Shown one piece after another: positions 7,119 through 24,182 of a DNA stretch of 64,000 nucleotides (position 1 is its first letter; every line of letters begins with the position of its first letter). The notes beneath the pieces were generated by a model, which saw only the letters and a program-made list of their open reading frames with translations, ran no database searches and was not told the DNA's origin. Where the stretch lies: assembly GCA_021413845.1 (NCBI GenBank), contig JAIOPP010000109.1, positions 1-64,000 of the forward strand. Reading direction: 5' to 3'. The translations under genes and the position numbers were made by a program. This stretch comes from Planctomycetia bacterium. GTDB taxonomy: Bacteria; Planctomycetota; Planctomycetia; Pirellulales; PNKZ01.

Positions 7119-7629
7119 AGCGGTGATTCCTTCGTGCTTTCGCACATCTGAATGTTGTGTTCGCCTCGTGACTGGCGGTCTCGCTGGTTGCGATGACGAA
7201 GGAGAACTAAAGCAGAGGGTGTGCCGAAGCGGTTGCGCAGAGGCGGAAATACGGGTTCGTGCGCGAGTCGAACTCTTCGCCGCATAACGAGTTAAAAAAT
7301 TCGCAGGCGCGCGGCGTGAGCGCTATGCAAGAAGCTACGCAGGTGCCGCGATGTTGCCGTCTCGCCACAGGCGCAGCGGCGCGCCGTCGTCGCTCGGCAT
7401 CATGCGTGGCGTGCGGGCGACGGTCGCGCGGGGTGCGGCCGATGACGATCGTAACGGCTCGCAGGGTTAAGGCGATCGCGCACGTAGTAACCGCACCGGA
7501 CTACCGCGGATTCGGCTCGTAAATGGCTCCGTTCCGGTTTGACCCATCTCAACTGCGACCTAAGTTCTTGGTGAGTCGACGAGAATGCGCACCGATTGCG
7601 CAAGTTTTTCACGTTAGGACAACATCACC
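7119..7629. other. Divergent intergenic region between pilin and prepilin peptidase genes
   Basis: About 510 bases separate the two divergent Tad genes. The region should hold both promoters, but I see no clear -35/-10 or -24/-12 pair. Short frames inside are arginine-rich shadows without ribosome sites. A lone AT-rich patch (GTTAAAAAATT near 7290) stands out against the GC-rich background. Confidence 0.5.
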
Positions 7630-8217
7630 GTGACTACCGCGGAACTAATCAGAATCATCGCCGTTGTTTTGTTTACCCTGGGTGCAGCGATCTGCGACTA
7701 TCGCACGAAAAAGCTCCCCAATAAGCTCACCGTCTCCTGCTTCGCGGCGGCGCTGGTGTATCAGCTGGCGACCGGCGCGTTCGCCGATGGTTGGCGCGGA
7801 GCGGGCATCGGCCTGCTGACCGCCTTGGAAGGCTTCGCCGTCGGCTTCGGAATCTTATTGGTCTTGTGGCTCATCGGCGGCGGCGGCGCGGGCGACGTCA
7901 AACTGATGGGTGCGCTCGGCGCGTGGTTCGGTCCGACGCAAACGCTGATCCTGTTCTTCGTCAGCACGATCTTCGTGTTGATTCTCAGCGTCGGCGTGTT
8001 GGCCTGGCAAATGATCAACACCGGCGCTTGGAACGTGCGTCGTCGGTATATGAGCTCGCAAAACGAAGACGACGCCAAGCGCCGCGGCCTCAGCCGCGAA
8101 GCCGCGGCGACGCAACACAAACTACGTCGGCGACTCATGCCCTACGGCGTGCCGGTCGCTTTGGCCTCGTGGATGGTCTTGGCTTGGTCGCTCCGTTCGC
8201 ATTGGCTCGGTGAATAA
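7630..8217 (+). CDS. cpaA: Prepilin peptidase, CpaA/TadV (A24 family)
   Basis: Inner-membrane aspartic peptidase that removes leaders of Tad prepilins. It has 195 residues and about five transmembrane helices. The two catalytic aspartates of A24 peptidases are visible: the first in AICDYRTKKLPN (Asp21) and the second in the GxGD motif GGGGAGDVKLMGALG. It lacks the N-terminal methyltransferase domain of PilD, as expected for CpaA/TadV. It starts with GTG. It opens the forward-strand Tad gene run, ahead of TadE. Its substrates should be the divergent pilin and the TadE protein, which share the motif G-A-hydrophobic-hydrophobic-S-x-E. Confidence 0.88.
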   Translation: MTTAELIRIIAVVLFTLGAAICDYRTKKLPNKLTVSCFAAALVYQLATGAFADGWRGAGIGLLTALEGFAVGFGILLVLWLIGGGGAGDVKLMGALGAWFGPTQTLILFFVSTIFVLILSVGVLAWQMINTGAWNVRRRYMSSQNEDDAKRRGLSREAAATQHKLRRRLMPYGVPVALASWMVLAWSLRSHWLGE

Positions 8218-8270
8218 GCTTCGTCGTGTCGAGCAACGAGTTCGTCGGTCTCCGATGTCGGAAGTGGGTT

Positions 8271-8693
8271 ATGAAACGTCGAAAAATACCGCTTTGTTCT
8301 CGTCAACGTCGCCGCTTGGGCGCCGTGCTGAGCATGGAGCTCATTTTCGTCTTGCCGATTCTGCTGGCGCTCATTTTTGCGTCCGTCGAGTTCGGCATGT
8401 TGTGGTCGTCGGGTCGGCGCGTGGAAGAAGCGGCTGCGGCCGGTTGCCGTACTGCATCGTTTCGCGGAGCCGACGATAGCGCGATCCGGCGGAGCATCGA
8501 GCGCACGCTCGATCGCACGGCGCTGGTGAAAAGCTATGCCGTCAACGTCCGGCGCGATCTGCCGAACGCGAATGAAGTCTGCGTGACCGTCTCGGTGCCC
8601 ATGAAGGCCGCCGCTCCCGACATGCTCGGGATCATCGGCTTCGCGTTGGGGAGCCGCACGATCGTCGCGCAGTCGGTCATGCGAAAAGAATAA
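8271..8693 (+). CDS. tadE: TadE-like pseudopilin
   Basis: TadE-family minor pilin of the Tad secretion/pilus system. The 140-residue product has a basic leader ending in RRRLG, followed by AVLSMELIFVLPILLALIFASVEFGML, the TadE hydrophobic segment with its conserved Glu. The C-terminal part is a small periplasmic domain. The ATG at 8271 is preferred over 8226 because GGAAG lies just upstream and the protein then starts with the basic leader. The Glu is at +6 after the predicted Gly cleavage site, the same offset as in the divergent pilin. It sits between cpaA and cpaB. Confidence 0.8.
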   Translation: MKRRKIPLCSRQRRRLGAVLSMELIFVLPILLALIFASVEFGMLWSSGRRVEEAAAAGCRTASFRGADDSAIRRSIERTLDRTALVKSYAVNVRRDLPNANEVCVTVSVPMKAAAPDMLGIIGFALGSRTIVAQSVMRKE

Positions 8694-8815
8694 TGAAATA
8701 AACGCTACGAACGTGAACTGTCGGATTGGGTTGCTTCCATTGAAATTGACGGCGAAGCGGAATCTCGCCGAAGTGCATTAAACGGCTCTTAAGTCTTGTT
8801 AAAGAGGTTGATGTT

Positions 8816-9967
8816 ATGGCTCGTATCAGTACCGGCACGATGACCGTTGCCATTTTCGCCGTGTTGTTCGGACTCGTCGGCGCCTACGCTTTGCGGGCCG
8901 CGCTGACCAAGCCGGAAGTCGAACCGCCGCCGCCGCCGAAAACCATTCCGGTGCCGATCGCATCGGTCGCCATTCCGGCCGGACGCCAGATCACCTTAGG
9001 TGATATGGTGCTCTTGCCGATGACGGGCGAAGACATGCGGAACCGTAAATACAACCTCGAGCAAGTCATGCTCGATTCCAGCCAAATCATCGGCCGGATC
9101 CTGCAAACAGAGATGAAGCCCGGCGATCCGTTTCTCACCGTGAACATGTATGCCCAAGGGACCGGTCCGAAGTTGTCGGACAAGCTCAAGCCGGGCATGC
9201 GCGCCGTGACGATCGCGATCGACAACCTGAACGCCGTCGGCGGCTCGACCGTCGAAGGAAGCTTCGTCGATATTCTGTTCCGCGCTCGCAAACGGGCCGC
9301 CGATCTCGCGAACGATCGTCCGGAAATTCCGGCCACGACGGTCACGCTCTTGGAAAACGTCGAAGTCTTGTCCGTCGGTCGGATCGATATGGCCGCTCGC
9401 CGCGGTCAAGAAGAAGAGAACGTCGACGTTCGCGACATCAACTCCGCGAGCATCGGCAAAGGCTACGGCAGCAACTATCAAGGGGCCGGAGTCGTCAGCG
9501 TGACGATCGCCGTCTCGCCGGATCAAGCGAACGTACTCAAGGCGGTGATCGGTCAAGGCGATATGTCGCTGTCGCTTCGCAACGAAGGTGCGAGCGGTGC
9601 TCCTCCGGCTCCGCAAGGGCAAAGCAGCGCGACGCCGAACAAGTACACGCTCGAAAGCGTCCTCGGCATCAAGAACGCCTCGATCGCAGGCCTCGACAAG
9701 ATCGAAATCTTTCGAGGAGGTTGGTCGCGGCAGAACGTGCATTACCAGAACGACAAAGTCATCCGTGAAGAAGTCAGCTTGATTCCCGGCATCGCACCGT
9801 CGACTCCGTTCCCGGTTCCGGCCAAGGTTCCTGCCGCCCAAGAACCCGCCACGAACGGCTCGGACGACAAGACCTTCAGCCCCTCGCCGCGGATCATCAA
9901 CAACGGCTTCGGCAACTCGGGACAGTTCGACAACATGGACGGCGGCCGCCGTTTCTACGGTCGCTAG
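8816..9967 (+). CDS. cpaB: Flp pilus assembly protein CpaB/RcpC
   Basis: Periplasmic, membrane-anchored component of the Tad pilus, thought to work with the outer-membrane secretin. In 383 residues it has an N-terminal signal anchor (MTVAIFAVLFGLVGAYALRAAL), a proline-rich linker with PPPPPK, and a SAF-type domain beginning VPIASVAIPAGRQITLGDMV (about residues 43-110), the CpaB hallmark. The RcpC-like middle region follows (KPGMRAVTIAIDN, GSFVDILFRAR). The C-terminus is Pro/Gly/Asn-rich and probably disordered. GAGG lies nine bases before the ATG. The secretin gene that usually follows is absent here; a TadG-like gene comes next. Confidence 0.85.
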   Translation: MARISTGTMTVAIFAVLFGLVGAYALRAALTKPEVEPPPPPKTIPVPIASVAIPAGRQITLGDMVLLPMTGEDMRNRKYNLEQVMLDSSQIIGRILQTEMKPGDPFLTVNMYAQGTGPKLSDKLKPGMRAVTIAIDNLNAVGGSTVEGSFVDILFRARKRAADLANDRPEIPATTVTLLENVEVLSVGRIDMAARRGQEEENVDVRDINSASIGKGYGSNYQGAGVVSVTIAVSPDQANVLKAVIGQGDMSLSLRNEGASGAPPAPQGQSSATPNKYTLESVLGIKNASIAGLDKIEIFRGGWSRQNVHYQNDKVIREEVSLIPGIAPSTPFPVPAKVPAAQEPATNGSDDKTFSPSPRIINNGFGNSGQFDNMDGGRRFYGR

Positions 9968-10040
9968 TCGTTCCGCCTCCGCTCGCTTCTCGCTTCGTTC
10001 GTCTCAGCCACCGACCTCGCGACCCGCGCACCTTCGAGCC

Positions 10041-11399
10041 ATGAATCCGATCCGCATCCAACCGCAGCGTAACTCGAGGCGACGTAAGTCGACCTCGATC
10101 GCTGCGCGCCGGTTGCGCAGCGGCTTCGCCTCGGGCCTGATGCTCATGATGTTGGTGTTCCTCGCCGGGTTCCTGGCGATCGGATTGAACGTCTCGCGGC
10201 TTTCGCAAATGCAAGCCCAGCTGCGCGCCGTCTGCCAAGCTTCGGCACTCGCCGGAGCGACGGAACTGCTCGACGAAGGCTTTCTCGCCGGCTATCCCGA
10301 CCAGCGCGACGACATCCTCGCCGCCCGTGAATCGGCTCGGCAAACGGCTCGGTCGAACTCCGTCGATGGGCGTGTCGTCGAGCTCGCATCGAATCTCGAT
10401 AACGCTCCGCTGGGCGATATCGTCGTCGGCAGCATCGAGCCGCTCGCGCTCGCCGGCCAAGCGATTGCCTTGCCGCTCGACATCAAGCAAGCGAAGGGCT
10501 TGAACACGGTGCGCGTCGTCGCGCGACTCAAGCTGAACACCTATAACAAAGTAACGCTGTTCTTGGGCGCTCTCACCGGCATGTTGTCGAGCGATGCCGC
10601 CTCAAGTGCGCAAGCGACCCTCGATCGCCGGATCGCCGGCTTCCGTCCGGAGCCGGGCGTGAAGGTGCCGGTCATGCCGTTGGTCGCCGACTACGATTCG
10701 TGGATGAAGCAAGCCACGGCCCGAGCGACCAACGTCAACGATCGCTACACGGTGAACTATCAGACCGGCGAAGTTCTCGCCGGGCCCGATGGAATCCCGG
10801 AAGTCCTCGTTTCGACCGGAGCGAAGAAAGCTTCCGACGGCAACGACGCCGATACGCAAGCAAGCGGAGCCGAAGCCGACGCGAAACCTTCCACCGACAA
10901 ACCTTCCGCCGCAGACGCTTCGCTCGCTTCGCCGCCGCCGGCTTGGTGTCGTGCGATGGATTTGTACTCCGTGCCCGACATCGGAACCAACACGCCGGCG
11001 AAGACGCTGAACGTTTGGCAGGTTCGCTGCCGCGACGGTCTCTCGGCGGATGATCTCCGTCAGTTCTCCGGACAACTCGTCGTGCAACAAGGGGCGATCG
11101 TCGTTCCGGTGTTGCCGGCGCTGCCGAATGAAATGCCGTATGCCCTGATGGACATCGTCGGCAGCTCGCGTGCCTGGCCGCTGGCCGAAGCAGGCAGCGA
11201 CGACGCCTCGTGTGCGATCGTCGGTTTCGCCGCCGGTCGGATCGTCGCCGTCCGCCGACCTGTGGCGACGCAAACGAATGCACAGTCTGAAACTTGGGAA
11301 CTCGTGGTTCAACCGACCACGCTCGTCAGCAGTCAAGCGGTGACGACCGCCAACATGAATCCGAATCCTTGGATCGGAAAACTGGAGCTTACTCAGTAA
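10041..11399 (+). CDS. TadG-like pilus assembly protein
   Basis: Putative TadG-type component of 452 residues. A basic N-terminus (RRRKSTSIAARRLRSG) leads into one hydrophobic helix, LMLMMLVFLAGFLAIGLNVSRL, followed by a conserved-looking stretch on accumulated pilus-like sequences (QAQLRAVCQASALAGATELL), as in Tad/TadG proteins where a pilin-like helix precedes a periplasmic domain. The middle (about residues 265-300) is a low-complexity Ala/Ser/Asp/Lys linker. No von Willebrand A motif was recognised, although many TadG proteins carry one. The stop overlaps the start of cpaF by one base (TAATG), which indicates translational coupling. Confidence 0.7.
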   Translation: MNPIRIQPQRNSRRRKSTSIAARRLRSGFASGLMLMMLVFLAGFLAIGLNVSRLSQMQAQLRAVCQASALAGATELLDEGFLAGYPDQRDDILAARESARQTARSNSVDGRVVELASNLDNAPLGDIVVGSIEPLALAGQAIALPLDIKQAKGLNTVRVVARLKLNTYNKVTLFLGALTGMLSSDAASSAQATLDRRIAGFRPEPGVKVPVMPLVADYDSWMKQATARATNVNDRYTVNYQTGEVLAGPDGIPEVLVSTGAKKASDGNDADTQASGAEADAKPSTDKPSAADASLASPPPAWCRAMDLYSVPDIGTNTPAKTLNVWQVRCRDGLSADDLRQFSGQLVVQQGAIVVPVLPALPNEMPYALMDIVGSSRAWPLAEAGSDDASCAIVGFAAGRIVAVRRPVATQTNAQSETWELVVQPTTLVSSQAVTTANMNPNPWIGKLELTQ

Positions 11400-12727
11400 T
11401 GATCAATACGCCGACCATCTTCACTTCCCAAGCGCCGCGCGTCATCGACGCCACGGAACACGAATTCCAACGCGTTAAGTCTTCGCTGCACGAACAACTC
11501 GTCGAGTCGTTCGATCTGTCGAAGATCACGCGCGTGAATCGCCAGCAGTTGTCGGACGAAGTCCGCACGATGGCGACCACGGCTTTCGGCAACCGCAAAG
11601 ACCTGTCGAAGATCGACCGCAACCGTCTCATGGACGAGTTGATGGACGAGATCTTCGGCTTCGGCCCGTTGGAGAAGCTTCTCAAAGACCCGACGATCAC
11701 CGATATCCTCGTCAACGACGCGAAGACGATCTATATCGAACGCCGCGGACGCTTGGAGTTGACCGACGTCGTGTTCGCCGACGACCAGCACTTGATCCGT
11801 ATCATTCAGAAGATCGTCGCCAAGCTCGGTCGCCGGATCGACGAATCGAGCCCGATGGTCGATGCTCGTCTGCCCGACGGCTCCCGTGTGAACGCGGTGA
11901 TCCCGCCGCTCGCGCTCGACGGCCCTGCGGTATCCATTCGTCGTTTCGGTACCGATCCGCTGAAGATCGAAGACCTGCTGCGCTACGGCTCGGTGTTGCC
12001 GGAGATGGTCGAATTCATTTCGGCCGCCATCGCCGCCCGCTGCAGCGTCCTCTTCTCCGGCGGTACCGGTGCCGGTAAGACGACCTTGCTCAACGCCTTC
12101 TCGCGATACATTCCCGAAGGGGAACGCCTCGTGACGATCGAAGACTCGGCGGAACTTATCCTGCAACATCGCCACCGCATTCGGATGGAAACCCGTCCGG
12201 CGAACACGGAAGGGATCGGTGCCGTCACGCAGCGTGATCTCGTCCGCAACAGTTTGCGTATGCGGCCCGATCGCATCATCGTCGGCGAAGTCCGCGGTCC
12301 CGAAGTTTGGGACATGCTCCAAGCCATGAACACGGGCCACGAAGGCTCGATGACCACGATCCACGCCAACACGGCGCGCGACGCGCTCGCTCGTCTCGAA
12401 ATGATGGTCGCGATGACCGGCGTCGAGTTGCCGATCTCCGTGATTCGCCAATACGCCGCCGCAGGCATCAACCTCGTCGTCCATGGTTCGCGCTTGAAGG
12501 GCGGGCCGCGGCGCATCATGCAGGTCTCGGAAATCGTCGGCATCAAAGATGGACAGTACGTGCTGGAAGATATCTTCGGCTTCGAGCAAACCGGAGTCGA
12601 TGCCGAAGGAACCGCCGTCGGCGAATTCTTCGCGACCGGCTACAAGCCGAAATGTCTCACCCGCATGCGAGCGGCCGGCGTCTCCTTGAACGACAGCCTG
12701 TTCCTGCCTCGCCGCTGGAAGCAATAG
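11399..12727 (+). CDS. cpaF: Tad pilus ATPase CpaF/TadA
   Basis: Cytoplasmic hexameric secretion ATPase powering Tad pilus assembly. The 442 residues include an N-terminal all-helical domain (HEQLVESFDLSKI), the family segment DEIFGFGPLEKLLKDPTITD, Walker A GGTGAGKTT near residue 221, Walker B-like VGEVRGPEVWDMLQAMNTGH and the His-box SMTTIHANTARDALARLE. The ATG at 11399 sits inside the stop of the TadG-like gene. A longer frame from 11294 lies over that gene and is rejected. It is followed by the two inner-membrane platform genes tadB and tadC, as in most Tad loci. Confidence 0.93.
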   Translation: MINTPTIFTSQAPRVIDATEHEFQRVKSSLHEQLVESFDLSKITRVNRQQLSDEVRTMATTAFGNRKDLSKIDRNRLMDELMDEIFGFGPLEKLLKDPTITDILVNDAKTIYIERRGRLELTDVVFADDQHLIRIIQKIVAKLGRRIDESSPMVDARLPDGSRVNAVIPPLALDGPAVSIRRFGTDPLKIEDLLRYGSVLPEMVEFISAAIAARCSVLFSGGTGAGKTTLLNAFSRYIPEGERLVTIEDSAELILQHRHRIRMETRPANTEGIGAVTQRDLVRNSLRMRPDRIIVGEVRGPEVWDMLQAMNTGHEGSMTTIHANTARDALARLEMMVAMTGVELPISVIRQYAAAGINLVVHGSRLKGGPRRIMQVSEIVGIKDGQYVLEDIFGFEQTGVDAEGTAVGEFFATGYKPKCLTRMRAAGVSLNDSLFLPRRWKQ

Positions 12728-12808
12728 TTTCCCGACGACTCGCGAACGAACGAGAATCGCCGATCGCCGGCCAAGACCAAATCAAGAACCTAAGACGACG
12801 AATCGCTC

Positions 12809-13738
12809 ATGGATACCACGCTGCTCCTTTATTTCGCGTTGCTCGTCGTGCTCATCGGCGCGGCGGTTTACCTGATCGTGCGCGACATGAACGCCGCAGC
12901 CGAGAAGAGCGCCGCGGATGAGCCCGAGAAGGTGACGTTGTCGACGTTGCCGTTTGCCGGCGATCCGAAAACGCCTAACGGCATGAGCGACGCGATCGAT
13001 CAAAAGTTCAACGACTTGATCTACCAAAGCGGAATCGAAATCGCTCCCGAAGCGGCGTTCCTCGCGATGGTGCTCTCCGGGCTCGTCTTCGGCGGGGCCG
13101 TGTTGATGTGGCGCGACGATATCGCCGTCGCTTGCGTCGGCTTCGTCTTCGGGTTCGTGCTCCCTTACGCCTACTTCGTGAATCGCCGCAATCAACGGAT
13201 CAAAGACATTCGCGAGCAATTGCCGAACTCGATGGAATCGATGGCCCGGGCCGTTCGCGCCGGCGAAACTCTCGACCAAGCGGTCGAGCTCACGGCTTCG
13301 TCGACGCCCGAACCGCTCGGCGTCGAATGGCGCCGCACGTCGCGACATTTGGAAATGGGGCTCTCCGTTCCGGCGGCGATGAAATCGATGACGAAGCGGG
13401 CTCCACTCATGGAGCTTCGCATTCTCAGTACGGCGCTCAACGTCCAACGCCGCACCGGCGGCAACTTGTCGCAGACGCTCGAACGACTCTCGAACGTGAT
13501 CCGCGACCGGCTTAGCTACCAACGCCAATTCCAAGCCGCAACCGGTTCGAGCCGCATGGCGACGATCCTCATCGCGCTCGCCGGGCCGCTCGTCTTCACA
13601 TACATGATCATCTTCCAGCCCGACTACATGGGCCAGTTCTTCAACCTGCCCGGCGGTTGGACGCTGCTCAGCATCGCCGTCGTCTTGCAAGTGATCGGCT
13701 TGATCTGGGTCACGGCGTTGTTAAGAAACAAATACTAA
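12809..13738 (+). CDS. tadB: Tad pilus inner-membrane protein TadB
   Basis: Integral membrane platform protein of the Tad system (type II secretion F family) with 309 residues. It has an N-terminal helix (LLLYFALLVVLIGAAVYLIV), two further helices around residues 85-125, and the GspF domain with NSMESMARAVRAGETLDQAVEL and MTKRAPLMELRILSTALNVQRRTGGNL. Two more helices close the protein. TadB and TadC are thought to form the base on which CpaF acts. It lies between cpaF and tadC on the same strand, with an 81-base gap before it. Confidence 0.88.
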   Translation: MDTTLLLYFALLVVLIGAAVYLIVRDMNAAAEKSAADEPEKVTLSTLPFAGDPKTPNGMSDAIDQKFNDLIYQSGIEIAPEAAFLAMVLSGLVFGGAVLMWRDDIAVACVGFVFGFVLPYAYFVNRRNQRIKDIREQLPNSMESMARAVRAGETLDQAVELTASSTPEPLGVEWRRTSRHLEMGLSVPAAMKSMTKRAPLMELRILSTALNVQRRTGGNLSQTLERLSNVIRDRLSYQRQFQAATGSSRMATILIALAGPLVFTYMIIFQPDYMGQFFNLPGGWTLLSIAVVLQVIGLIWVTALLRNKY

Positions 13739-13740
13739 AC

Positions 13741-13889
13741 AGTGTTCGGTGGTCAGTGGTCAGCAAATCATTAAGCAACCATGCCGTATCGAAGCTCGCT
13801 TGCGATTTCGCGAACCTAAAAACACCGACCGTCGATAACAAAAGCTCTCGATTCATTAGAAATTAAGTCATCGCTCTTCCGGCCTTCCC
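13741..13889. other. Intergenic spacer with TGGTCAGTGGTCAG word repeat
   Basis: The gap between tadB and tadC starts with GTTCGGTGGTCAGTGGTCAGC (near 13743-13763), a short direct repetition of GTGGTCA, and continues as AT-richer, non-coding sequence. It interrupts an otherwise compact gene run and resembles the other word-like intergenic repeats in this window. Confidence 0.45.
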
Positions 13890-14810
13890 ATGAATCTCAA
13901 TCTCATTACCATCGCGGCCTTCGTGATCTTCACGGCCGGCGTGTTTCTCATTCGCTCTTTGGTGCTGAGCTGGCGCGGTACGTTTGCCTCGCAACTCTCC
14001 GGAGAAGCAGGCCAAGCCTACGTGGCGAGCGAGCCGGTCTTCGGCGATCTCACCGGGCCGTTGGCTGCGCAGTTGCCGCTACTCGGTTCGACGGAGAATT
14101 CTCTCGACCGCGACTTGCGACGGGCGGGCTACTACAAGCCGTCGGCTCGGTCGGAATTTCTTGCCTTGCGCAACGTCCTTTCGATCATGTGCGTCCTCTT
14201 TACCGCAGTGACGGCGGTGATGATCGGCCCGGAACGAAGCGACTTGCTGGCGCAGATTCTCGTCTGGGGTTTCGCCGCCGCCGCTTTGGCTTACGTCTTG
14301 CCGTGGTTGTTTTTGAAAGGCCAAGTCCGTCGTCGCCTCGACCTGATTCGGCGCGGCTTGCCGGACGCGTTCGACATGCTCACGATGTGCCTCTCCGGCG
14401 GCCTCGGCATCAACGACTCGCTCGCCAACGTCAGCCGCGAAATCTATGCGGCGCATCCCGACCTCGGCACCGAACTGGAGATCGTCCGTCGTCAGGCCGA
14501 GATGGGTTCGCTCGGCGACGCTTTCCGTCAGTTCGCCGACCGGATCGACATTCAGGAAACGGCCGCTCTTAAGGGCCTCATCCAACAAACCGAACGACTC
14601 GGCTCGAACGTCGTGCAAGCCGTGCGCGACTTCGCCGACGACATCCGCACCCGACAACGACAAACGGCCGACGAACGAGCGAGCAAGGCGGGCATCAAGC
14701 TCCTGTTCCCGCTCGTCCTCTGCCTCGCGCCGGCGACGTTGATCATCCTCTGGGGTCCGGCTCTGCTCGAACTGCGCAACTTCTTCCGCACGTTCAACGC
14801 AGGCAGCTAA
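13890..14810 (+). CDS. tadC: Tad pilus inner-membrane protein TadC
   Basis: Second GspF-fold platform protein of the Tad system, 306 residues. The N-terminal helix ITIAAFVIFTAGVFLIRSLVL is followed by a cytoplasmic part, a helix pair near residues 90-145 (LSIMCVLFTAVTAVMIGP, LVWGFAAAALAYVLPWLFL), the GspF core GLPDAFDMLTMCLSGGLGINDSLANVSRE and a final helix LLFPLVLCLAPATLIILWGP. It is the last gene of the Tad run. A hairpin after it may end transcription. Confidence 0.88.
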   Translation: MNLNLITIAAFVIFTAGVFLIRSLVLSWRGTFASQLSGEAGQAYVASEPVFGDLTGPLAAQLPLLGSTENSLDRDLRRAGYYKPSARSEFLALRNVLSIMCVLFTAVTAVMIGPERSDLLAQILVWGFAAAALAYVLPWLFLKGQVRRRLDLIRRGLPDAFDMLTMCLSGGLGINDSLANVSREIYAAHPDLGTELEIVRRQAEMGSLGDAFRQFADRIDIQETAALKGLIQQTERLGSNVVQAVRDFADDIRTRQRQTADERASKAGIKLLFPLVLCLAPATLIILWGPALLELRNFFRTFNAGS

Positions 14811-15270: not shown

Positions 15271-16545
15271 TTAAAGGGCCGCGCGAATTCCGTCGAGCAC
15301 TTCATCGTCGCTCGGCAACGGCGACGGCATGAACCCGCGCAGCGGAATCGGGACTTCATCCATCCGATACGCCGTGCCCGAGCGGTGAATGCCGTACACG
15401 GCGGTCGTGAAGCGCACAGTCGGCTGCATCAAGCGTTCGGCCGAGGCGTAGTCGAGCACGATCGTCGGAATCCGCTCGAGCGCCGCGCGGGCACGGTCCG
15501 ACAACGTACGAATCCCCTCACCGCCGACCAGCACGCAAGCGTCGACTTCGCCTCGCGACAAACAAGCCTCGGCCGAATACTCGCCCGGGCTATAGCGCGG
15601 ATAACCCCGCGCCAAGTTCACGCTGAATGGGTAGCCGGTCTGCCACGTCAGCACGCTATCGGCTCCGGCCACATCGCCGTAGATGCGCATGCGTCGCGCG
15701 TAGAAACGGGTATAGGCGTTCAGCTCCGTCGTGAGCCGCAGCAGCGCTTCGACGTCGGCATGCCCGACCGGCCCGAGCGACAAGCCTCGTCCGAAGAACA
15801 CGACTCCGGTGCGGCAACCTTTCATACGGGCTGCCAAGTCTTCGAGCACACCGATCGGCACTCCGCCGACTTCCGCTACATTGAGCTTGAGCCCTTGCAC
15901 CAGCGCTCGCAGCACCCAGAGAACTTCGAAATCGCTCCCTTGCCGGACTTGCACGAACAGATCGGCGACGCGGGCCGTCTCGGTCGCGCGGCTATCGACG
16001 ACGACGAGCGTTCGATCTTTTCGTCCTCCCGGCACGAACTGACCGCGCGGCTCCACGGCGTAGCGCTCCATGTGGCGCGGATGGCTCGACGCCGGATTCG
16101 AGCCCCAATAGATCACCAAGTCCGCACGGTTGCGCACTTCGCCGAGCGTCGACGTCGATTCGCCGACGGCTTGCAGCGCCACGATCGAAGGGCCGTGGCA
16201 GGTCGAGGCGTTCGTATCGATCACGGCACCAAGTCGGTCGGCCAAATGCACCGCGGCGCGCTGTCCGGGAGTGCTACTCCGCGCAAGTCCGTAGATGAGC
16301 GGCATGCGCGCTTGGCGCAAGATGTTCGCCGCTTCGGCAATGCCGACCGACAACTCGACGGGCTTTCCGGCCAGCTCGGCTGCGCTCGGCGACGTCGCGA
16401 CGTTCTGTTTCAGAAACCACGCTTCGGCCAATCGGCAGCGCGGCTCGACGACCGCGATCCGTCCGTCGTCGACGGCGACGCGCAGATCGTCGCAAACGCA
16501 ACCGCAGACCGTACACGCGATATCGTCGAACACCTGCTTCGCCAC
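15271..16545 (-). CDS. fwdB: Formylmethanofuran dehydrogenase subunit B (FwdB/FhcB-like)
   Basis: Homologue of the tungsten/molybdenum-pterin subunit of formylmethanofuran dehydrogenase, or of FhcB in the bacterial formyltransferase/hydrolase complex of tetrahydromethanopterin-linked C1 oxidation. From GTG 16545 it has 424 residues. Cysteines of an N-terminal [4Fe-4S] motif are present (Cys11, Cys14, Cys16/18 in CTVCGCVCDD, and Cys37). So is Cys116 in STCHGPSIVALQ, at the position of the archaeal metal ligand, and NRADLVIYWGSNPASSHPRH follows. The frame stays open upstream to 16956, but that part runs through intergenic repeat sequence and the divergent sigma gene, so I chose the GTG just before the conserved start. 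No fwdA/C/D genes are in the window. Confidence 0.85.
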   Translation of the reverse strand: MAKQVFDDIACTVCGCVCDDLRVAVDDGRIAVVEPRCRLAEAWFLKQNVATSPSAAELAGKPVELSVGIAEAANILRQARMPLIYGLARSSTPGQRAAVHLADRLGAVIDTNASTCHGPSIVALQAVGESTSTLGEVRNRADLVIYWGSNPASSHPRHMERYAVEPRGQFVPGGRKDRTLVVVDSRATETARVADLFVQVRQGSDFEVLWVLRALVQGLKLNVAEVGGVPIGVLEDLAARMKGCRTGVVFFGRGLSLGPVGHADVEALLRLTTELNAYTRFYARRMRIYGDVAGADSVLTWQTGYPFSVNLARGYPRYSPGEYSAEACLSRGEVDACVLVGGEGIRTLSDRARAALERIPTIVLDYASAERLMQPTVRFTTAVYGIHRSGTAYRMDEVPIPLRGFMPSPLPSDDEVLDGIRAAL

Positions 16546-16662: not shown

Positions 16663-17349
16663 ATGTCGGAAGACCCCGTTTCGCATGTAGTCGTGCAGAT
16701 GAGTTCCGAAACCGCCGAACCGACGTTGATCGATCAGATTCGCCGGGGCGATACGCGCACCTGGCACGACTTCATCGCCGCCTACGAAGGGCGCTTGGCG
16801 GCGTTCGTCAGGGCTCGGCTCGGCGATCCCGCGACCGTCGACGACGTGGTGCAAGAGACGTTCGTCGGCTTCCTGCTGAGCTTGCCCAACTACGATTCTT
16901 CGCGCGGCGTCGAAACGTATCTCTTCGCCATCGCGTCGCACAAGCTGACCGACCATCTACGCCGCCAAGGTCGCAGGCCGACGATGCCGCTCGCGATGGG
17001 GCCCGAATCGAGCGACGGCGAGTTCGACCCCGCCGACTTGGCGCGCTCCGTCGGCAGCGTTGCCCGGAGCGGCGAGCGCAAAGGGCTCGAAGCAGCGGCC
17101 CTGGCCGAAGTGCTTCGCGAGACCCTCGCGCGCTGGCGCGAAAAAGGAGAAGACGTCCGAGTCGCTTGCCTCGAACTGCTGTTCGTGCGCGGCAAGTCGA
17201 ACAAAGAAACCGCCGCGCTCCTCGAAATCACCGAGCAAAACGTCGCGAACTATAAGTTCGACTTTCTCACGCGCCTGCGCGATGGGCTCCGCGGCCGGAA
17301 CCTTTCGACCGACGTGTTTCCGGAACTCACCGGCAACGACGCCTCTTAA
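16663..17349 (+). CDS. ECF-type RNA polymerase sigma-70 factor
   Basis: Sigma factor of 228 residues with regions 2 and 4 only. Region 2 (about residues 24-97) shows GDTRTWHDFIAAYEGRLAAFVRARL and the -10 binding DDVVQETFVGFLLSLPNY. Region 4 (about 150-210) has the helix-turn-helix GKSNKETAALLEITEQNVANYKFDFL. The linker between them is longer than in minimal ECF factors. GGAGG at 16654-16658 sits five bases before the ATG. No anti-sigma factor gene adjoins it. It is divergent from fwdB, and its stop lies one base from the convergent ketosynthase-like gene. Its regulon cannot be inferred here. Confidence 0.88.
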   Translation: MSEDPVSHVVVQMSSETAEPTLIDQIRRGDTRTWHDFIAAYEGRLAAFVRARLGDPATVDDVVQETFVGFLLSLPNYDSSRGVETYLFAIASHKLTDHLRRQGRRPTMPLAMGPESSDGEFDPADLARSVGSVARSGERKGLEAAALAEVLRETLARWREKGEDVRVACLELLFVRGKSNKETAALLEITEQNVANYKFDFLTRLRDGLRGRNLSTDVFPELTGNDAS

Positions 17350-17350
17350 A

Positions 17351-18634
17351 CTACGCTTCGCGTACGACGACGATCGCCACGGCTTGCCCCATCGGCGTTT
17401 GACTGAGAATGAGGGCCGTCGGTTTCTCTAAAGCTTGCGGCGCTCCATGCACCACGGCCACTGGGCACTCCGGATCGGGGTGCGTGTAGTTGAGCGTCGG
17501 CGGAATGCGCCCTGCGAGCAAAGCCGCCACGGCCGCGGTGAAGTCGACCGCGCCGCCGCCGGAACCGAGATTGCCGTAATAACTTTTCGGCACCGTGACC
17601 GGCACGTCGCCCAACACGCTCCGGATACCCTGCGCCTCGGCGGCGTCGTCGCGCCGCGTGCCGCGCCCTTGGGCCGAGACGAAGCCGACATCGCCGGCCG
17701 AGAGTTCGGCGTCGGCGAGGGCCCGCTCGATCGACTGCGCGATGGCAACCGACGTAACGCCTCCCTGCTTTTCACGGCCGAACGCACTGCCGAAGCCCGC
17801 GACCCGCGCCAGGATGTTCGCGCCGCGGCGCTGTGCCGAGCGGCGGCTTTCCAACATCGCCGCACCGGCCCCTTCGCCGAAGGTCTCCCCTTCGCGCTCG
17901 GCGTCGAACGGCCGCATCGCATGTTCCGGGTCGTCGTTGCGATGCGACGCCTCGGCCGCGCTGTTGCGCACCATCGACGTCGGCTGCACGCGCACTCCGG
18001 TCCCTCCGGCGAACATCAGATCGGCCTGCCCGCGCGCGACCACGCGCATCGCTTCACCGATCGCCGAGAGGCTCGATACCTCACCGAGCGTGATCGTGTT
18101 GTTCGGGCCTCGGGCATCGAACGCGATGCCGATATGGCACGCCGGCATGTTCGGCAGATGCTTGAGCATCCAGAGAGGATAAATCTCCTGCATCGCCACT
18201 TCGCCCCAGCGAGTGAAATCGAACTCGCCGTCGACCGTCGATTTCTTATAACCCAGCGCGGCCTCGATGGGGTCGGGCTGAATCAGATCGCTGCCGAACA
18301 CGACGCCGAAGCGTTCGGGATCGATTGCGCCGACCGCGATCGTCGCTTGCGTATAAGCTTCATCGGCCGCGGCGAACGCGAGTTGAATATCGCGCGACAT
18401 CACCTTCAAGCTCTTGCGCGGGCGAACGCGTTGCTTCGGGTCGAAGTCGAGCACTTCGCCGCCGAAGCGAATCGGCAAGAGCGACGCATCGAACAGTGTG
18501 AGCGGCCGAATTCCGCTCCGACCTTCCATCAGCGACGACCAAAACAAGTCTAAGCCGATGCCGATCGGGCTCACGACTCCCAGGCCCGTTACGACGACTT
18601 GCTCGGACGACGTCGACACGGCGGCGATTCTCAC
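17351..18634 (-). CDS. FabF-fold ketosynthase-like protein lacking the Cys-His-His triad
   Basis: Thiolase-fold protein of the beta-ketoacyl-ACP synthase family, 427 residues, with VVVTGLGVVSPIG at the N-terminus, FDAEREGETFGEGAGAAMLE near 243-262 and PKSYYGNLGSGGGAVD near 349-364. All three catalytic residues are replaced. The nucleophile position holds Glu185 (TITLGEVSSLSAIGEA instead of ...ACTSG...). The first histidine is Gln322 (VSAQGRGT for NAHGT) and the second is Asn355 (YGN for TGH). The lysine before it (Lys350) is kept. It therefore cannot condense in the normal way. It may act as a chain-length-factor-like partner, a decarboxylase-type KS or a scaffold. An SDR dehydrogenase lies upstream on the same strand. 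Confidence 0.85.
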   Translation of the reverse strand: MRIAAVSTSSEQVVVTGLGVVSPIGIGLDLFWSSLMEGRSGIRPLTLFDASLLPIRFGGEVLDFDPKQRVRPRKSLKVMSRDIQLAFAAADEAYTQATIAVGAIDPERFGVVFGSDLIQPDPIEAALGYKKSTVDGEFDFTRWGEVAMQEIYPLWMLKHLPNMPACHIGIAFDARGPNNTITLGEVSSLSAIGEAMRVVARGQADLMFAGGTGVRVQPTSMVRNSAAEASHRNDDPEHAMRPFDAEREGETFGEGAGAAMLESRRSAQRRGANILARVAGFGSAFGREKQGGVTSVAIAQSIERALADAELSAGDVGFVSAQGRGTRRDDAAEAQGIRSVLGDVPVTVPKSYYGNLGSGGGAVDFTAAVAALLAGRIPPTLNYTHPDPECPVAVVHGAPQALEKPTALILSQTPMGQAVAIVVVREA

Positions 18635-18766: not shown

Positions 18767-19531
18767 CTATTTCGGCGACATCCGAATCGCCCCGTCGAGC
18801 CGCACGACCTCGCCGTTGAGCATCGTGTTGTCGAAGATATGGCGGGCCAGCGCGGCGAACTCTTCCGGCCTCCCGAGCCGCGGCGGAAACGGAACCTGCG
18901 CGCCGAGTGACGTGCGCACCTCTTCCGGCATCGCGCCGAGGAGCGGCGTCTCGAAGATGCCCGGCGCAATCGTAACGACCCGGATGCCGTACTTCGCGAG
19001 CTCGCGCGCGGCGGGGAGCGTGAGCGCCGCGACGGCTCCCTTCGACGCGGCATAAGCGGCCTGCCCGATCTGCCCCTCGAACGCGGCGACCGAAGCGGTG
19101 CAAACGATGACGCCTCGTTCCCCTTCCGCGTTCGGCTCGTTCTTCGTCATCGCGGCCGCGGCGAGGCGCAAGAGATTGAACGTCCCCACGGTATTCACCC
19201 GCAGCACGCGCTCGAACAACGCCAGATCATGCGGCGCCTCGCGGCCGACGATGCGCGCGGCCGGCGCAATGCCCGCGCAAGCGATCGCGCCGCCGAGGGG
19301 AGCTAGCGCGATCGCCGTCGCGAGCGCTTCGCTCAACGGCGCCGCTTCCGCAACGTCGGCCTCGACGAAACGCGCCCCGGAGCCGAGCTCGGCCGCGAGC
19401 GCTTCGCCGGCCTCACGATTGCGATCGACGACGACGACGCGCCCCGCGGCCACAGCAAGCATCCGCGCGCAAGCCGCGCCGAGGCCCGATGCTCCGCCCG
19501 TGACGACGAACGATCGATCTTGGATCTGCAT
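18767..19531 (-). CDS. SDR-family dehydrogenase (HSD10/3-hydroxyacyl-CoA type)
   Basis: Classical short-chain dehydrogenase/reductase of 254 residues. The NAD(P) motif TGGASGLG is at residues 12-19, and VVDRN after beta-2, with an acidic residue, favours NAD(H). ACAGIAP replaces NNAG. The catalytic Ser-Tyr-Lys is clear in CTASVAAFEGQIGQAAYAASKGAV. The segment PGIFETPLLGAMPEEVRTSLGAQVPFP, FDNTMLNGEVVRLDGAIRM strongly resembles type-10 3-hydroxyacyl-CoA/17-beta-hydroxysteroid dehydrogenases. It precedes the substituted ketosynthase with a 132-base gap on the same strand, so a joint role in acyl-chain or polyketide chemistry is possible. Confidence 0.85.
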   Translation of the reverse strand: MQIQDRSFVVTGGASGLGAACARMLAVAAGRVVVVDRNREAGEALAAELGSGARFVEADVAEAAPLSEALATAIALAPLGGAIACAGIAPAARIVGREAPHDLALFERVLRVNTVGTFNLLRLAAAAMTKNEPNAEGERGVIVCTASVAAFEGQIGQAAYAASKGAVAALTLPAARELAKYGIRVVTIAPGIFETPLLGAMPEEVRTSLGAQVPFPPRLGRPEEFAALARHIFDNTMLNGEVVRLDGAIRMSPK

Positions 19532-19562: not shown

Positions 19563-20912
19563 TTATTGAGAGTTGGTCGGGCTGACGCGTGCGCCGTCGG
19601 TTAGCGTCGACTCGGGCGCGAGCACGACGAGCTCCCCTTCGGCGAGCGGCGTCGTGACTTCGACTTGCTCATCGTTCATCAGCCCGACCTCGACGCCGAC
19701 GAGCTTCGCCTTCCCGCTGCGCACGGCGAAGACCTGCCAACGACCATCGGGCCCGCGGAACAAGGCCGAGCGCGGAACGACGAGCGTGCGAGGTTTTTCG
19801 GCCGTAAAGATCCGGACGCGCACCCGATATCCGATCCCGAGATCTTGCATCTTTTCGATCCGTTCCAGTTCGCCGGGCGCGAACCTAACGATGACTTTCA
19901 CGCGCTGCTGCTCGACGCCGAGCGAGCTGACCTTCGTAAAGCCGGCGGGATAAATCGCGGCGACGATGCCCCGAGCCGGCTGCGCGCCGACCGCCGGACC
20001 ATAGACTTCGACTCCTTGCTCGGGCTTCACGCGAACGACGTCTTGGCTCAAGATATCGGCTTCGACTTCCAATTGGCCCGGTGCGCCGATCTTCAACAAC
20101 ACGGTGCCGGGAGCGAGGCGGCGTTCGTTGGTCTCCAGCCGTTCGAGCACGACGCCGTCGATCGGGCTTTGCATGCTGCCCCGGTCGCGATCGCGCACTT
20201 GCTGCGCGAGCTTCACTTCGGCCTGCGCCCGTTCGTTCTTCAACACGGCGACGGTCAGGTCTTTGCGATCCATGTATTGCTTCACGACAGTCGGCACCAG
20301 CGTCGTCGCCGAGAGCATGCTTTGCAGGGCCTTGAGCACCAGTTGATCTTGCCGCAAGTCGACGTCGGCTTGGATGCGCTGGAGCTCGGCGTTGTTCCAT
20401 TGATCTTCGCTCGCGCTGTTGGTTTCGCGCAGGGTGCGAATTCGGCCGAAGTTCTTATTCGCGTAATCCAGCTTCGCCTCGCCGGCTTCGACGCGCGCGG
20501 CCGCCGCCGCGACCGTCGCTTGCATGCTCAGGACGTATTCGAGCGATTGCTTGAGGGCCGTCGATTCGACCGTCTTGTCACCGCTTTCCTTGATCGACGA
20601 TTCAAGCCGATCGATATTCGCTTGAGCGTCTTGCACGGTGAGCTGCAGGTCTTGCGGCACGACCTTCGCGACGACTTGCCCCTTCTTCACCACGGCACCT
20701 TCGCTGAGCTCGATCGCTTCGACCCGGCCGTCGAACGGCATCGTGATCAGCTGCGTTACGGGCAACCGCGTCTGAGCCTGCTCGTCGACGAACTCCCGGA
20801 TCGGAGCAGGGGCCACGGCGGCGCACTGCACGACCGTGCCGGAAGACATGCCGGACCAGGCGGCCACGGCGAGGAGGAGGACTACGATGAGCGCGACGAT
20901 TGTCCATTTCAT
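19563..20912 (-). CDS. HlyD/MacA-family periplasmic adaptor
   Basis: Membrane-fusion (adaptor) subunit of a tripartite ABC exporter, 449 residues. Signal anchor at residues 1-22 (WTIVALIVVLLLAVAAW), barrel/lipoyl half with TMPFDGRVEAIELSEGAVVKKGQVVAKV, a long alpha-helical hairpin (about 100-240, heptad-like, with LRETNSASEDQWNNAELQRIQADVDL), second lipoyl half SPIDGVVLERLETNERRLAPGTVLL, and a C-terminal beta domain. The start at ATG 20912 places the hydrophobic anchor at the N-terminus. A 25-residue upstream extension reads through the inverted repeat and is rejected. It is the last gene of the ATPase-permease-adaptor set. No outer-membrane TolC gene is in the window. Confidence 0.85.
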   Translation of the reverse strand: MKWTIVALIVVLLLAVAAWSGMSSGTVVQCAAVAPAPIREFVDEQAQTRLPVTQLITMPFDGRVEAIELSEGAVVKKGQVVAKVVPQDLQLTVQDAQANIDRLESSIKESGDKTVESTALKQSLEYVLSMQATVAAAAARVEAGEAKLDYANKNFGRIRTLRETNSASEDQWNNAELQRIQADVDLRQDQLVLKALQSMLSATTLVPTVVKQYMDRKDLTVAVLKNERAQAEVKLAQQVRDRDRGSMQSPIDGVVLERLETNERRLAPGTVLLKIGAPGQLEVEADILSQDVVRVKPEQGVEVYGPAVGAQPARGIVAAIYPAGFTKVSSLGVEQQRVKVIVRFAPGELERIEKMQDLGIGYRVRVRIFTAEKPRTLVVPRSALFRGPDGRWQVFAVRSGKAKLVGVEVGLMNDEQVEVTTPLAEGELVVLAPESTLTDGARVSPTNSQ

Positions 20913-21087: not shown

Positions 21088-23466
21088 CTATTCTCTCGTT
21101 TTCAAGGCTTCCAGCCAATCCATTCCGTGGATGCTTCGTTGCACGATCAGGTGGGCCGCGAGGCCGAAGCCGATGCCGAGCAGCATGACGTAGCACCAGA
21201 CTTCCGTAGGATCGATCAACGGGATGCGGAACATTTCCGTATCGTACGCAACGACGATTCCGTAGTTGAGCAGATAGCCGAGCGGCAGCCCAACGACCGT
21301 GCCGACGACGTTCGTGAGCATGCTCTCGCGCAGAAACAGCGCCCCGATTTGCCACGGGCCATAACCGAGCACGCGCAACGTCGCGACCTCGCGTCGGCGC
21401 TCGGCTAGGCTGACGAGCGAGGAGTTCAACACGCTGCCGAAGAAGATCACGCCGGCGAACATCACCAACAGCCCGATGAACACGTGCTGGTTCTTGACCA
21501 GGGTTTCGTTCACGCTCCGAATGATATCGGCCCTCGCGGACACGCCTTGCACCGCCGGCAATTGCTTCACCTGTTCATAAAGCGCGCGGCGGTGTTCTTC
21601 TCCAGGCCGGATTTGCAATTGCACGCCGGTCAGCACGAACTCTTCGTTCATCAGCTTGCTCAGAAAACGAATGTCGGCGTAGACCGCCACGCCGAGAAAG
21701 CTGTCGGCGATCTCGGCGACTTGCACTTCGCGCAGCTCTCGCAGCCCCTTCGTCGAACGAATCGAGATCCTGTCGCCGCGCCGCACATGCAACATCTCGG
21801 CCATCTTCTTCGTCAGCAACAGGCCCAACTCCGGGATGCGCAGCGGGCGGGTCGCGGTATCGCGCGGGATCGTGAGGGCGGCGTTCCGCTTCACGCCGGT
21901 GATGCCTCCTTTGCGGATATGCGAGCCGTTGTAAAACGTACAGGCCACGTCGAGCATCGGCTCGGCGAGATCGACGCCGGGCAAGCGGGCCGCTTCGTCG
22001 AGCGCGTCGATTCCTTGTTCGTCCTTAAAGGTCAGGTCGACATCGCTGCGCTGGATCAACTCGAATTGGAAGTCGACCATATAGCTGGTCGCAAAGGCCA
22101 GCAGCAGCGCATTGACTGAAAGCGTGGCACCCATCGCGGCGGCGAACAATCCGGCCGCGGTTCGGAGCCGGTTGCGCAGCACGTTGCGCAGCGACATGCG
22201 TCCGCCGAAGCTCAACAGATTCCAGAACCTCGGAAAGCGTTCGAGAAAGACGGCGCCGCCGCTCAGCGGAGGCTTCGGCCGCATCGCCACGGCGGGCTCG
22301 AGCTTCAAAACCTCGCGCGCTCCGAACAACGAACCGATCACGCCGCAGACCAAACCGATCGCGATGCCCGTCGCGGTGATGTCGGGATAAAACCGGTTCT
22401 CCAAACTCGGAAACTGAAAGAAGCCGTCGTACATCGCGGTCATTCCGCCGGCGAGCCAATAGCCGAGTGCGCAACCTCCGAAGCCCGAGATCGCGCCGAC
22501 CGTGAGCCCGAACTTGAGAAAGTGAAGAAAGACGGCGGTGCTGGAATAGCCGAGCGCCTTAAGCGTGCCGACGACGACTCGCTGCTGTTCGGCCAGCCGC
22601 GACATAAGAACATTGAGCACGATCGCAGCGACGGCGAGAAAGATCGCCGGATTGATGACGCCGAACGCGCGCAGGCCCATGATCTCGTTGCTGATGAACC
22701 GGTTCGACGGTTGATCGCGGAGCGGAACGGCATTGAGGACGCCGTAGGAATCGAGCAGCGTCTCAGCCCGGCGCAACACTTCTTGCGGATGGTCGCGCAC
22801 TTGCGGCGTGAGCCGACCGAGCACCTGATTGCACGCCCCTTGGAAGTCGAACACTTCTTCGGCGAACGTCTGCTTGATGTAGAACACGCCGAGCCGTTTC
22901 GAGTCGGGCACCAGCGAACCGGGCCCGACGAGGTAAGTAAACTCGCTGCTGATCGCCGTGCCGACGACATAGAGTTCTTGCCGGCGATTGTTGAGCAGCA
23001 GATGGATCCACGAGCCGGGATAGATCTTGTGTGCCCGCGCGAAGGAATCGTTGATGATCACTTCGTTGTCGCGACGATCGGTGTAGTAGCCTCCTTGCTT
23101 GAGGACGATGTCGTCGATCACCGCGGTTCGGCGATTGGGCATCGAGATGACGATGCCGTTGACCGGCTCGACGACGTTCTCCAAATCGACCGTAGCGAAA
23201 AACTGGATGCGCGGCCGGAGCTCGACGACGCCCGGCAACGATCCGATCAGAGCGACTTCGGAAAGGGGAGCTTTCTTCAGGTCGAGCGAGAAGTCGGCCA
23301 TGCGGCATTGGGCATAGTAGAGCCGCTGCGCGATCATGAGGTTGCGATACGCCGAGCCGAGCGCGACGTAGGCCGAGACGCCGACCGCCATAATGCTGCC
23401 GACCGCCAACAGCAAGAACCCGGTGTTGCGCAGATCGCGCAGCAGTTTCCGATCGAGCACCTTCAC
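21088..23466 (-). CDS. ABC transporter permease with two FtsX domains
   Basis: Inner-membrane permease of the MacB/LolC/DevC superfamily, 792 residues. An N-terminal helix (NTGFLLLAVGSIMAVGVSAYVALG) is followed by a large periplasmic domain, a first helix bundle around residues 270-400 (INPAIFLAVAAIVLNVLMSRLAEQQRVVVGTLKALGYS; the FtsX signature), another helix near 435-460, a second periplasmic domain and a C-terminal FtsX bundle (LLVMFAGVIFFGSVLNSSLVSLAERRREVATLRVLGYGPWQIGALFL). Two FtsX units in one chain suggest it works as a complete permease. Its first four bases overlap the end of the ATPase gene (ATGA), so the two are translationally coupled. Confidence 0.88.
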   Translation of the reverse strand: MKVLDRKLLRDLRNTGFLLLAVGSIMAVGVSAYVALGSAYRNLMIAQRLYYAQCRMADFSLDLKKAPLSEVALIGSLPGVVELRPRIQFFATVDLENVVEPVNGIVISMPNRRTAVIDDIVLKQGGYYTDRRDNEVIINDSFARAHKIYPGSWIHLLLNNRRQELYVVGTAISSEFTYLVGPGSLVPDSKRLGVFYIKQTFAEEVFDFQGACNQVLGRLTPQVRDHPQEVLRRAETLLDSYGVLNAVPLRDQPSNRFISNEIMGLRAFGVINPAIFLAVAAIVLNVLMSRLAEQQRVVVGTLKALGYSSTAVFLHFLKFGLTVGAISGFGGCALGYWLAGGMTAMYDGFFQFPSLENRFYPDITATGIAIGLVCGVIGSLFGAREVLKLEPAVAMRPKPPLSGGAVFLERFPRFWNLLSFGGRMSLRNVLRNRLRTAAGLFAAAMGATLSVNALLLAFATSYMVDFQFELIQRSDVDLTFKDEQGIDALDEAARLPGVDLAEPMLDVACTFYNGSHIRKGGITGVKRNAALTIPRDTATRPLRIPELGLLLTKKMAEMLHVRRGDRISIRSTKGLRELREVQVAEIADSFLGVAVYADIRFLSKLMNEEFVLTGVQLQIRPGEEHRRALYEQVKQLPAVQGVSARADIIRSVNETLVKNQHVFIGLLVMFAGVIFFGSVLNSSLVSLAERRREVATLRVLGYGPWQIGALFLRESMLTNVVGTVVGLPLGYLLNYGIVVAYDTEMFRIPLIDPTEVWCYVMLLGIGFGLAAHLIVQRSIHGMDWLEALKTRE

Positions 23467-24182
23467 CAGGTGATCTCCTCGGGAGGAGACGGGCTCGGGT
23501 TGTCGTGCGCTTCGACGATCTCGCCGGAGCGCAACCGAATCACATGATCGGCGACCTGCGCAATCGCCGCGTTGTGCGTGATGATGACGACCGTCTTGCG
23601 GAGCTCGCGGCAGGCATCGACCAAGAGCCGCAAAACGCGCTTGCCGGTGTCGAAGTCGAGTGCGCCGGTCGGCTCGTCGCAGAGCAGCAACTCGGGATTC
23701 TTCGCCAACGCGCGGGCGATCGCGACGCGCTGCTGCTCGCCGCCGGACATTTGCGAAGGGAAATGCTCGGCCCGCTCCGAGAGGCCGACGAGCCGCAGCG
23801 CTTCATCCACATCCAGCGGCTTCCGGCTGATCTCGGTGCTCACCATCACGTTTTCGCGGGCCGTGAGCGTCGGCTCGTGGTTGTTGTACTGGAAGACGAA
23901 GCCGATCGTTTCGCGACGATAGACCGTCAACTCGCGCTCGGAGAAGGCGGTCATTTCGCGGTCCCGATACCAAACTCTGCCGTGCGATGCGGTATCGAGT
24001 CCGCCGATGATATTCAGTAGCGTGCTCTTGCCCGAGCCGGAGGGGCCGAGAATCGCAAGGACTTGATGATCGTGGATATCGATCGTGACCTTGCGCAGCA
24101 CCTCGACCGAAACCTCGCCCATGTCGTAGGTCTTGCCGACGTTTTCCAAGCGCAACAGCGGTGGCGCAGTAGGATCGTTCAT
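23463..24182 (-). CDS. ABC transporter ATP-binding protein (MacB/LolD type)
   Basis: ATPase of the exporter encoded by the next two genes; 239 residues from ATG 24182. Walker A GPSGSGKST, Q-loop FVFQYNNHEPTLTARENV, signature MSGGEQQRVAIARAL, Walker B ELLLCDEPTGALD and H-loop IITHNAAIAQ are all intact. The FxYNNHEPTLTxxEN loop is of the MacB/LolD group. A 23-residue longer start (24251) is possible but gives an atypical extension. Its stop overlaps the permease start by four bases. The substrate is unknown; MacB-like and DevA-like systems export peptides, lipids or glycolipids. Confidence 0.88.
   Translation of the reverse strand: MNDPTAPPLLRLENVGKTYDMGEVSVEVLRKVTIDIHDHQVLAILGPSGSGKSTLLNIIGGLDTASHGRVWYRDREMTAFSERELTVYRRETIGFVFQYNNHEPTLTARENVMVSTEISRKPLDVDEALRLVGLSERAEHFPSQMSGGEQQRVAIARALAKNPELLLCDEPTGALDFDTGKRVLRLLVDACRELRKTVVIITHNAAIAQVADHVIRLRSGEIVEAHDNPSPSPPEEITW

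Follow-up and report, generated by a model that had tools for sequence, protein, structure and literature searches.

Identification of a FabF-like protein without a catalytic triad

What is the function of a protein that has the fold of a beta-ketoacyl-acyl carrier protein (ACP) synthase but none of its catalytic triad? The question arises from a 64,000-nucleotide stretch of Planctomycetia bacterium DNA (order Pirellulales; assembly GCA_021413845.1, contig JAIOPP010000109.1, positions 1 to 64,000), hereafter the window. One gene here encodes a relative of the ketosynthase (KS) FabF. We suggest, with a probability of about two in three, that the product is a non-catalytic KS-beta subunit of a heterodimeric type II ketosynthase. 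Phylogeny, tandem operons in relatives and a split ACP-docking patch lead us to this reading. The predicted partner is probably a catalytic KS-alpha encoded on another contig, C42, of the same genome. Features of the gene, located by alignment to FabF, are listed below.

17351..18634, minus: pseudo-ketosynthase (KS-beta-like), 427 amino acids, GTG start; called from translation, fold and family membership
18398..18418, minus: RKSLKVM, residues 73-79, retained ACP-docking helix (K74 and K77 occupy the FabF Lys65 and Arg68 columns)
18137..18292, minus: 52-residue segment (39 in FabF) with the insertion common to KS-alpha and KS-beta
18080..18082, minus: Glu185 codon, FabF Cys163 column (motif TLGEVSS)
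17669..17671, minus: Gln322 codon, FabF His303 column, a lineage-specific loss (motif SAQGRGT)
17585..17587, minus: Lys350 codon, FabF Lys335 column, kept
17570..17572, minus: Asn355 codon, FabF His340 column (motif PKSYYGNLG)
17384..17398, minus: TPMGQ, replacing the FabF gating loop GFGG(T/H)N (Phe400)

The protein matches NCBIfam fabF (TIGR03150; E 1e-79, 268 bits) below the curated cut-off of 493.75. Its single-chain AlphaFold2 model has a mean predicted local distance difference test score of 91, and comparison with FabF structures gives Z of ~62-65 across ~400 residues. Alignment and model both bear out the original prediction, made from the DNA letters alone, of a FabF fold with Glu185, Gln322 and Asn355 for Cys-His-His (C-H-H) and with Lys350 kept. 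FabF itself is defined by C-H-H and the GFGG(T/H)N loop; the window protein has E-Q-N and TPMGQ. Judged from these residues, it should be dead as a ketosynthase. In the KSQ type, Cys becomes Gln and both His are kept; here the residue is Glu and both His are gone. A FabF fold without the catalytic Cys is what defines a KS-beta or chain-length factor (CLF). Such proteins are also encoded beside their KS-alpha, which is the case in relatives from other classes and not in the window.

Glu or Asp and Asn are family traits

A contig search for homologues gave a single close relative, L029; the other matches were mainly distant FabF proteins with C-H-H. We describe conservation in a set of 25 orthologues drawn from many of the order's families. 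None has Cys in the Cys163 column, where Glu (19), Asp (5) and Ser (1) are found. The second-His column holds Asn in 20, His in four and Tyr in one. Lys335 is present in 24 of 25, and the gating loop is lost in every class member examined. The first-His column contains His (17), Phe (3), Asn (2), Ser (2) or Gln (1). Since the first His is kept in 17 of 25, its loss is largely a feature of the genus: three congeners, 66-70% identical to the window protein, have E-F-N. Hence, by alignment, Glu or Asp at the Cys column with Asn at the second His is the family signature, and the whole triple is not. The original prediction had asked whether this is a family feature or a local defect. The former holds for the lost Cys and for Asn355; Gln322 is not conserved.

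Within the genus, dN (non-synonymous divergence) is 0.18-0.27 and dS (synonymous divergence) ~0.9-1.2. The dN/dS ratio is thus roughly 0.2-0.3, and the window protein is under purifying selection. A lost triad might otherwise be read as a decaying pseudogene, or as a sequencing or assembly error. Full-length frames in the examined orthologues, purifying selection and substitutions common to several families rule this out, and we give it next to no weight.

KS-beta descends from a tandem ketosynthase pair

Two trees were built without the triad columns and rooted at the midpoint. The first contained 108 KS proteins, with support from the Shimodaira-Hasegawa-like approximate likelihood ratio test (SH-aLRT); the second had 80 rows, with bootstrap and SH-aLRT support. 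In the first, 63 Cys-less KS of the phylum form one clade (SH-aLRT 100). The Cys-less KS-beta clade is supported at 100/100 in the second. Closest to it are C-H-H KS from one family (f34), a sister group encoded immediately upstream of KS-alpha; the KS-alpha clade is the next sister. The window protein belongs to the phylum-specific clade by monophyly with tandem KS-beta, by the shared insertion and by lysines at positions 65 and 68.

Ten tandem loci were sampled from other classes (L134-L142 and L193; the short L143 was left out). In all ten, KS-alpha is preceded by KS-beta or by its C-H-H sister. The two genes overlap or are <=~50 bp apart in nine; in L140 a small gene intervenes. These operons also carry FabZ, ACP, a second FabZ and sometimes FabG (L134-L139, L141, L142). 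We conclude that the upstream gene of a tandem KS-beta/KS-alpha pair gave rise to the family. In some pairs both members are C-H-H and only one has the docking patch. Such pairs suggest an intermediate, in which docking was divided before catalysis was lost.

Docking patch and active site are lost reciprocally

E. coli FabF holds ACP through Lys65, Arg68 and Lys69, known as region 1 (PMC7138838). In the AcpP-FabF complex, an ACP is contacted mostly by the KS monomer to which it is not crosslinked (PMC7138838). All 63 of 63 KS-beta rows have Lys65 together with a Lys at position 68, as do the C-H-H sisters. None of 33 KS-alpha rows is basic at both positions; Lys65 occurs in one, and the commonest letters are Glu, Asp or Gln. 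Net charge over the four positions compared is ~-0.8 for the KS-alpha set, with three sister rows still counted in it, as against +1.9 to +2.9 for KS-beta and +3.0 for housekeeping FabF. Every KS-alpha row keeps C-H-H and Phe400. Hence, the alignments show that KS-beta lost the active site and kept the docking lysines, while KS-alpha did the reverse. Because the loss is reciprocal, the two look like complementary halves of one working unit.

KS-alpha and KS-beta also have an insertion in common. The segment is 52-54 residues long in both (one of 60), compared with 39 in housekeeping FabF, which lacks the 13-residue insertion. Residue alignment beside the insertion is less certain and single positions there are not interpreted.

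Candidate partners are encoded elsewhere in the genome

No ACP and no second KS were recognised among the genes called around the window KS, as the original prediction had stated. Its proposed genome search for both located them together on contig C42, in an ACP-FabZ-KS-alpha cluster with a C-H-H KS-alpha. KS-alpha was detected in 38 of 40 relatives. Among 149 genomes of the phylum, KS-alpha occurs in 22, KS-beta or its sister in 20 and both in 19; these counts, made by clade, insertion length and E-value, are not phylogenetically independent. The one genome with KS-beta only (G132) has it on a 3.9 kb contig. Three related genomes have a solitary KS-alpha. The solitary KS-alpha-like genes in L194, L195 and L196, from three genomes of a single family (f23), are accompanied by repeated exported proteins of ~636 amino acids, and no KS-beta was recognised nearby.

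In the class of the window, KS-beta is dispersed into three paralogues: the window type, a C94 type and a type in the operon for fatty acid synthesis (FAS). The Cys-less C94-type gene (contig C94, 61532-62785; L042) encodes N-H-G here and E-H-C in three congeners. In other families the FAS type has the order fabD-fabG-acpP-fabF-(exported protein)-KS-beta, mostly followed by nusA-infB. This paralogue lies between fabF and nusA in several of the order's genomes and in one genome from a different order. The window's genome has its FAS-type copy on contig C133 and fabF on a different one, C80. The intervening exported-looking protein is conserved (~365-470 amino acids; L043:7823-9226, equivalents in L062-L069) and matches neither Pfam nor NCBIfam. 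In the window's genome its gene is still next to KS-beta, though fabF is on another contig.

The window gene follows ABC exporter genes

Four genes precede the KS gene on the same strand.

23463..24182, minus: ATP-binding cassette (ABC) exporter ATPase, LolD/DevA/MacB-like; scores below equivalog cut-offs
21088..23466, minus: FtsX-type ABC permease, 792 amino acids (PF02687)
19563..20912, minus: HlyD/RND-type membrane-fusion adaptor (TIGR01730 above cut-off)
18767..19531, minus: FabG-like short-chain dehydrogenase/reductase (SDR; PF00106), 31 bp after the adaptor gene and 132 bp before KS

The last is the upstream same-strand SDR that had been noticed from the sequence. The order ABC ATPase, FtsX permease, HlyD-type adaptor, SDR, KS-beta recurs on one strand in four of four genomes of the genus (including L048, L049 and L050). 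A fatty acid desaturase gene (PF00487) stands in divergent orientation to the orthologue, at <=~0.7 kb, in 12 of 40 relatives. A related large protein is encoded close by in L052, L058 and L060, and is MMPL by Pfam in L060. A role in producing or exporting a special lipid is plausible.

Downstream, an ECF-type (extracytoplasmic function) sigma factor gene (16663-17351) converges on the KS gene, with stop codons one base apart. A product encoded at 15271-16545, minus strand, resembles formylmethanofuran dehydrogenase subunit B by eye and has no Pfam match. Further away, at 6786-14810, a Flp/Tad-type pilus cluster (pilin, prepilin peptidase, CpaB-like, TadB/TadC-like) was also recognised by eye.

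A proposed divided ketosynthase and its alternatives

Heterodimer formation is what we infer from these comparisons. KS-beta would pair with the KS-alpha of the ACP-FabZ-KS-alpha cluster on C42. ACP would dock on KS-beta, with its arm inserted into the KS-alpha active site. KS-beta might also shape the acyl pocket across the dimer interface and so set chain length or substrate. The neighbouring genes, for an ABC exporter and SDR in this genus and for a fatty acid desaturase in other families, make a special lipid acyl chain the probable product. A bolder version is tentative, and we consider it doubtful. Here, one KS-alpha would be shared by up to three interchangeable KS-beta docking or chain-length subunits, each in a different lipid context. 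The result would be a mix-and-match ketosynthase with docking and catalysis divided.

Several observations weigh against the proposed heterodimer. KS-beta is not adjacent to KS-alpha in the window or in the loci examined of its class, and the KS-alpha clusters examined in that class (L045, L150-L153) have no KS-beta alongside. Two of the 40 relatives, the draft genomes G017 and G034, carry the window-type gene without a detected KS-alpha. Docking region 2 (FabF Arg127, Lys128 and Arg206) is not conserved in KS-beta. Finally, the FabF encoded next to the FAS-operon paralogue has a docking patch of its own, and this paralogue may therefore pair with a different protein.

A solitary gene with retained docking lysines might instead encode a dead, ACP-binding homodimer that, without KS-alpha, regulates or senses fatty acid synthesis or serves as a scaffold for it. 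The paralogue carried in the housekeeping FAS operon, between fabF and nusA, fits this idea. However, it leaves both the tandem origin and the docking-patch loss of KS-alpha unexplained, and we consider it unlikely, though the strongest of the competing explanations. The same fabF-x-KS-beta arrangement is the closest operon link of a paralogue and could point to a subunit for housekeeping FabF rather than for a C42-type KS-alpha. Yet the pair-specific insertion is absent from that FabF, which retains a docking patch of its own, and the window-type gene is outside the FAS operon; this explanation is very improbable.

Different chemistry is also conceivable, with Glu or Asp and a His-Asn pair serving a malonyl-ACP decarboxylase or an acyltransferase/hydrolase. 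Glu or Asp is conserved across most of the family, and most relatives keep His-Asn and Lys. His-Asn is the pair used by FabH. However, the first His is Gln in the window protein and Phe in its congeners, the gating loop is lost and, in other relatives, the Cys column holds Ser or Asn. Furthermore, decarboxylation is described as requiring both His (PMC2649909). We hold such chemistry to be improbable. A KSQ-type decarboxylase is likewise unlikely, with both His lost. Hence, of the three roles offered by the original prediction, phylogeny, tandem operons and the split docking patch best support the CLF-like partner or the non-catalytic scaffold, and the decarboxylase is unlikely.

Comparison with known systems

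Two known pairs serve as precedents for the heterodimer: actinorhodin KS-CLF and chains B (C-H-H) and C (V-N-E) of PDB entries 9s5h and 9s5i, which were solved together. Actinorhodin CLF (1tqy_B) is a partner subunit of FabF fold and is non-catalytic; like the window protein, it has replacements at all three triad positions and keeps the Lys. It differs in having Q-D-R, compared with E-x-N here, in being adjacent to its KS-alpha and in making aromatic polyketides. Actinobacterial CLFs in two sampled loci (L035, L038) are also Q-D-R. Chain C of 9s5h keeps the Lys and docking Lys65 and Arg68; the window protein likewise keeps the Lys and is basic in these docking columns. It differs by having no insertion and other residues, and by falling far outside the KS-beta clade. 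The earlier view that chain-length factors replace only the Cys, making a triple substitution unusual, is refuted by these Q-D-R and V-N-E proteins.

In both trees, actinorhodin-type CLFs and the window protein are in separate clades; the window protein is not a member of the actinobacterial CLF clade. A recent common origin with either this CLF or the anammox-type 9s5h_C is not supported by the 80-row tree. Because both sit elsewhere in the tree, triad loss in KS partners probably happened several times, and that of 9s5h_C was probably independent of the window clade.

Further comparisons are highly reducing type II polyketide synthases and the aryl polyene KS-CLF ApeO-ApeC (PMC8358021). Their parts are those of the relatives' operons: ACP, FabZ-like dehydratases, a FabG-like SDR and a KS pair. 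As a point of difference, the window protein is full length. The cispentacin heterodimer AmcF-AmcG (PMC10698177) may offer a further analogy, being likewise a KS with a partner without functional motifs; AmcG itself lacks some secondary structures of CLF (PMC10698177). Literature searches for planctomycete KS-CLF, ladderane FabF heterodimers and CLF or decarboxylation found nothing direct.

Closely related observations were made by Rattray et al. 2009 (PMC2649909). By residues only, 9s5h chain C matches their listing for Kuenenia Kuste3606 (Val-Asn-Lys-Glu). They also recorded Rhodopirellula baltica FabF paralogues NP_866153 (Glu163-His298-Lys328-Asn333) and NP_865682 (Asp163-His298-His333), without a function or partner role. 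As in the window family, Cys is replaced by Glu or Asp, and one has Asn at the second His. Judged by these reported residues, both probably belong to the same family. The paralogues in the window's genome agree with these residues, and the genome has 73 matches to PSD1 (PF07587), a family not seen in 14 control genomes; both features point to a planctomycete. New relative to that study are the tandem origin, the docking split and the three paralogues. Together they offer a testable account of the Cys-less planctomycete paralogues noted in 2009: a ketosynthase in which the catalytic subunit no longer grips ACP and the dead one docks it. If true, this would link an order-wide gene family to unusual planctomycete lipids.
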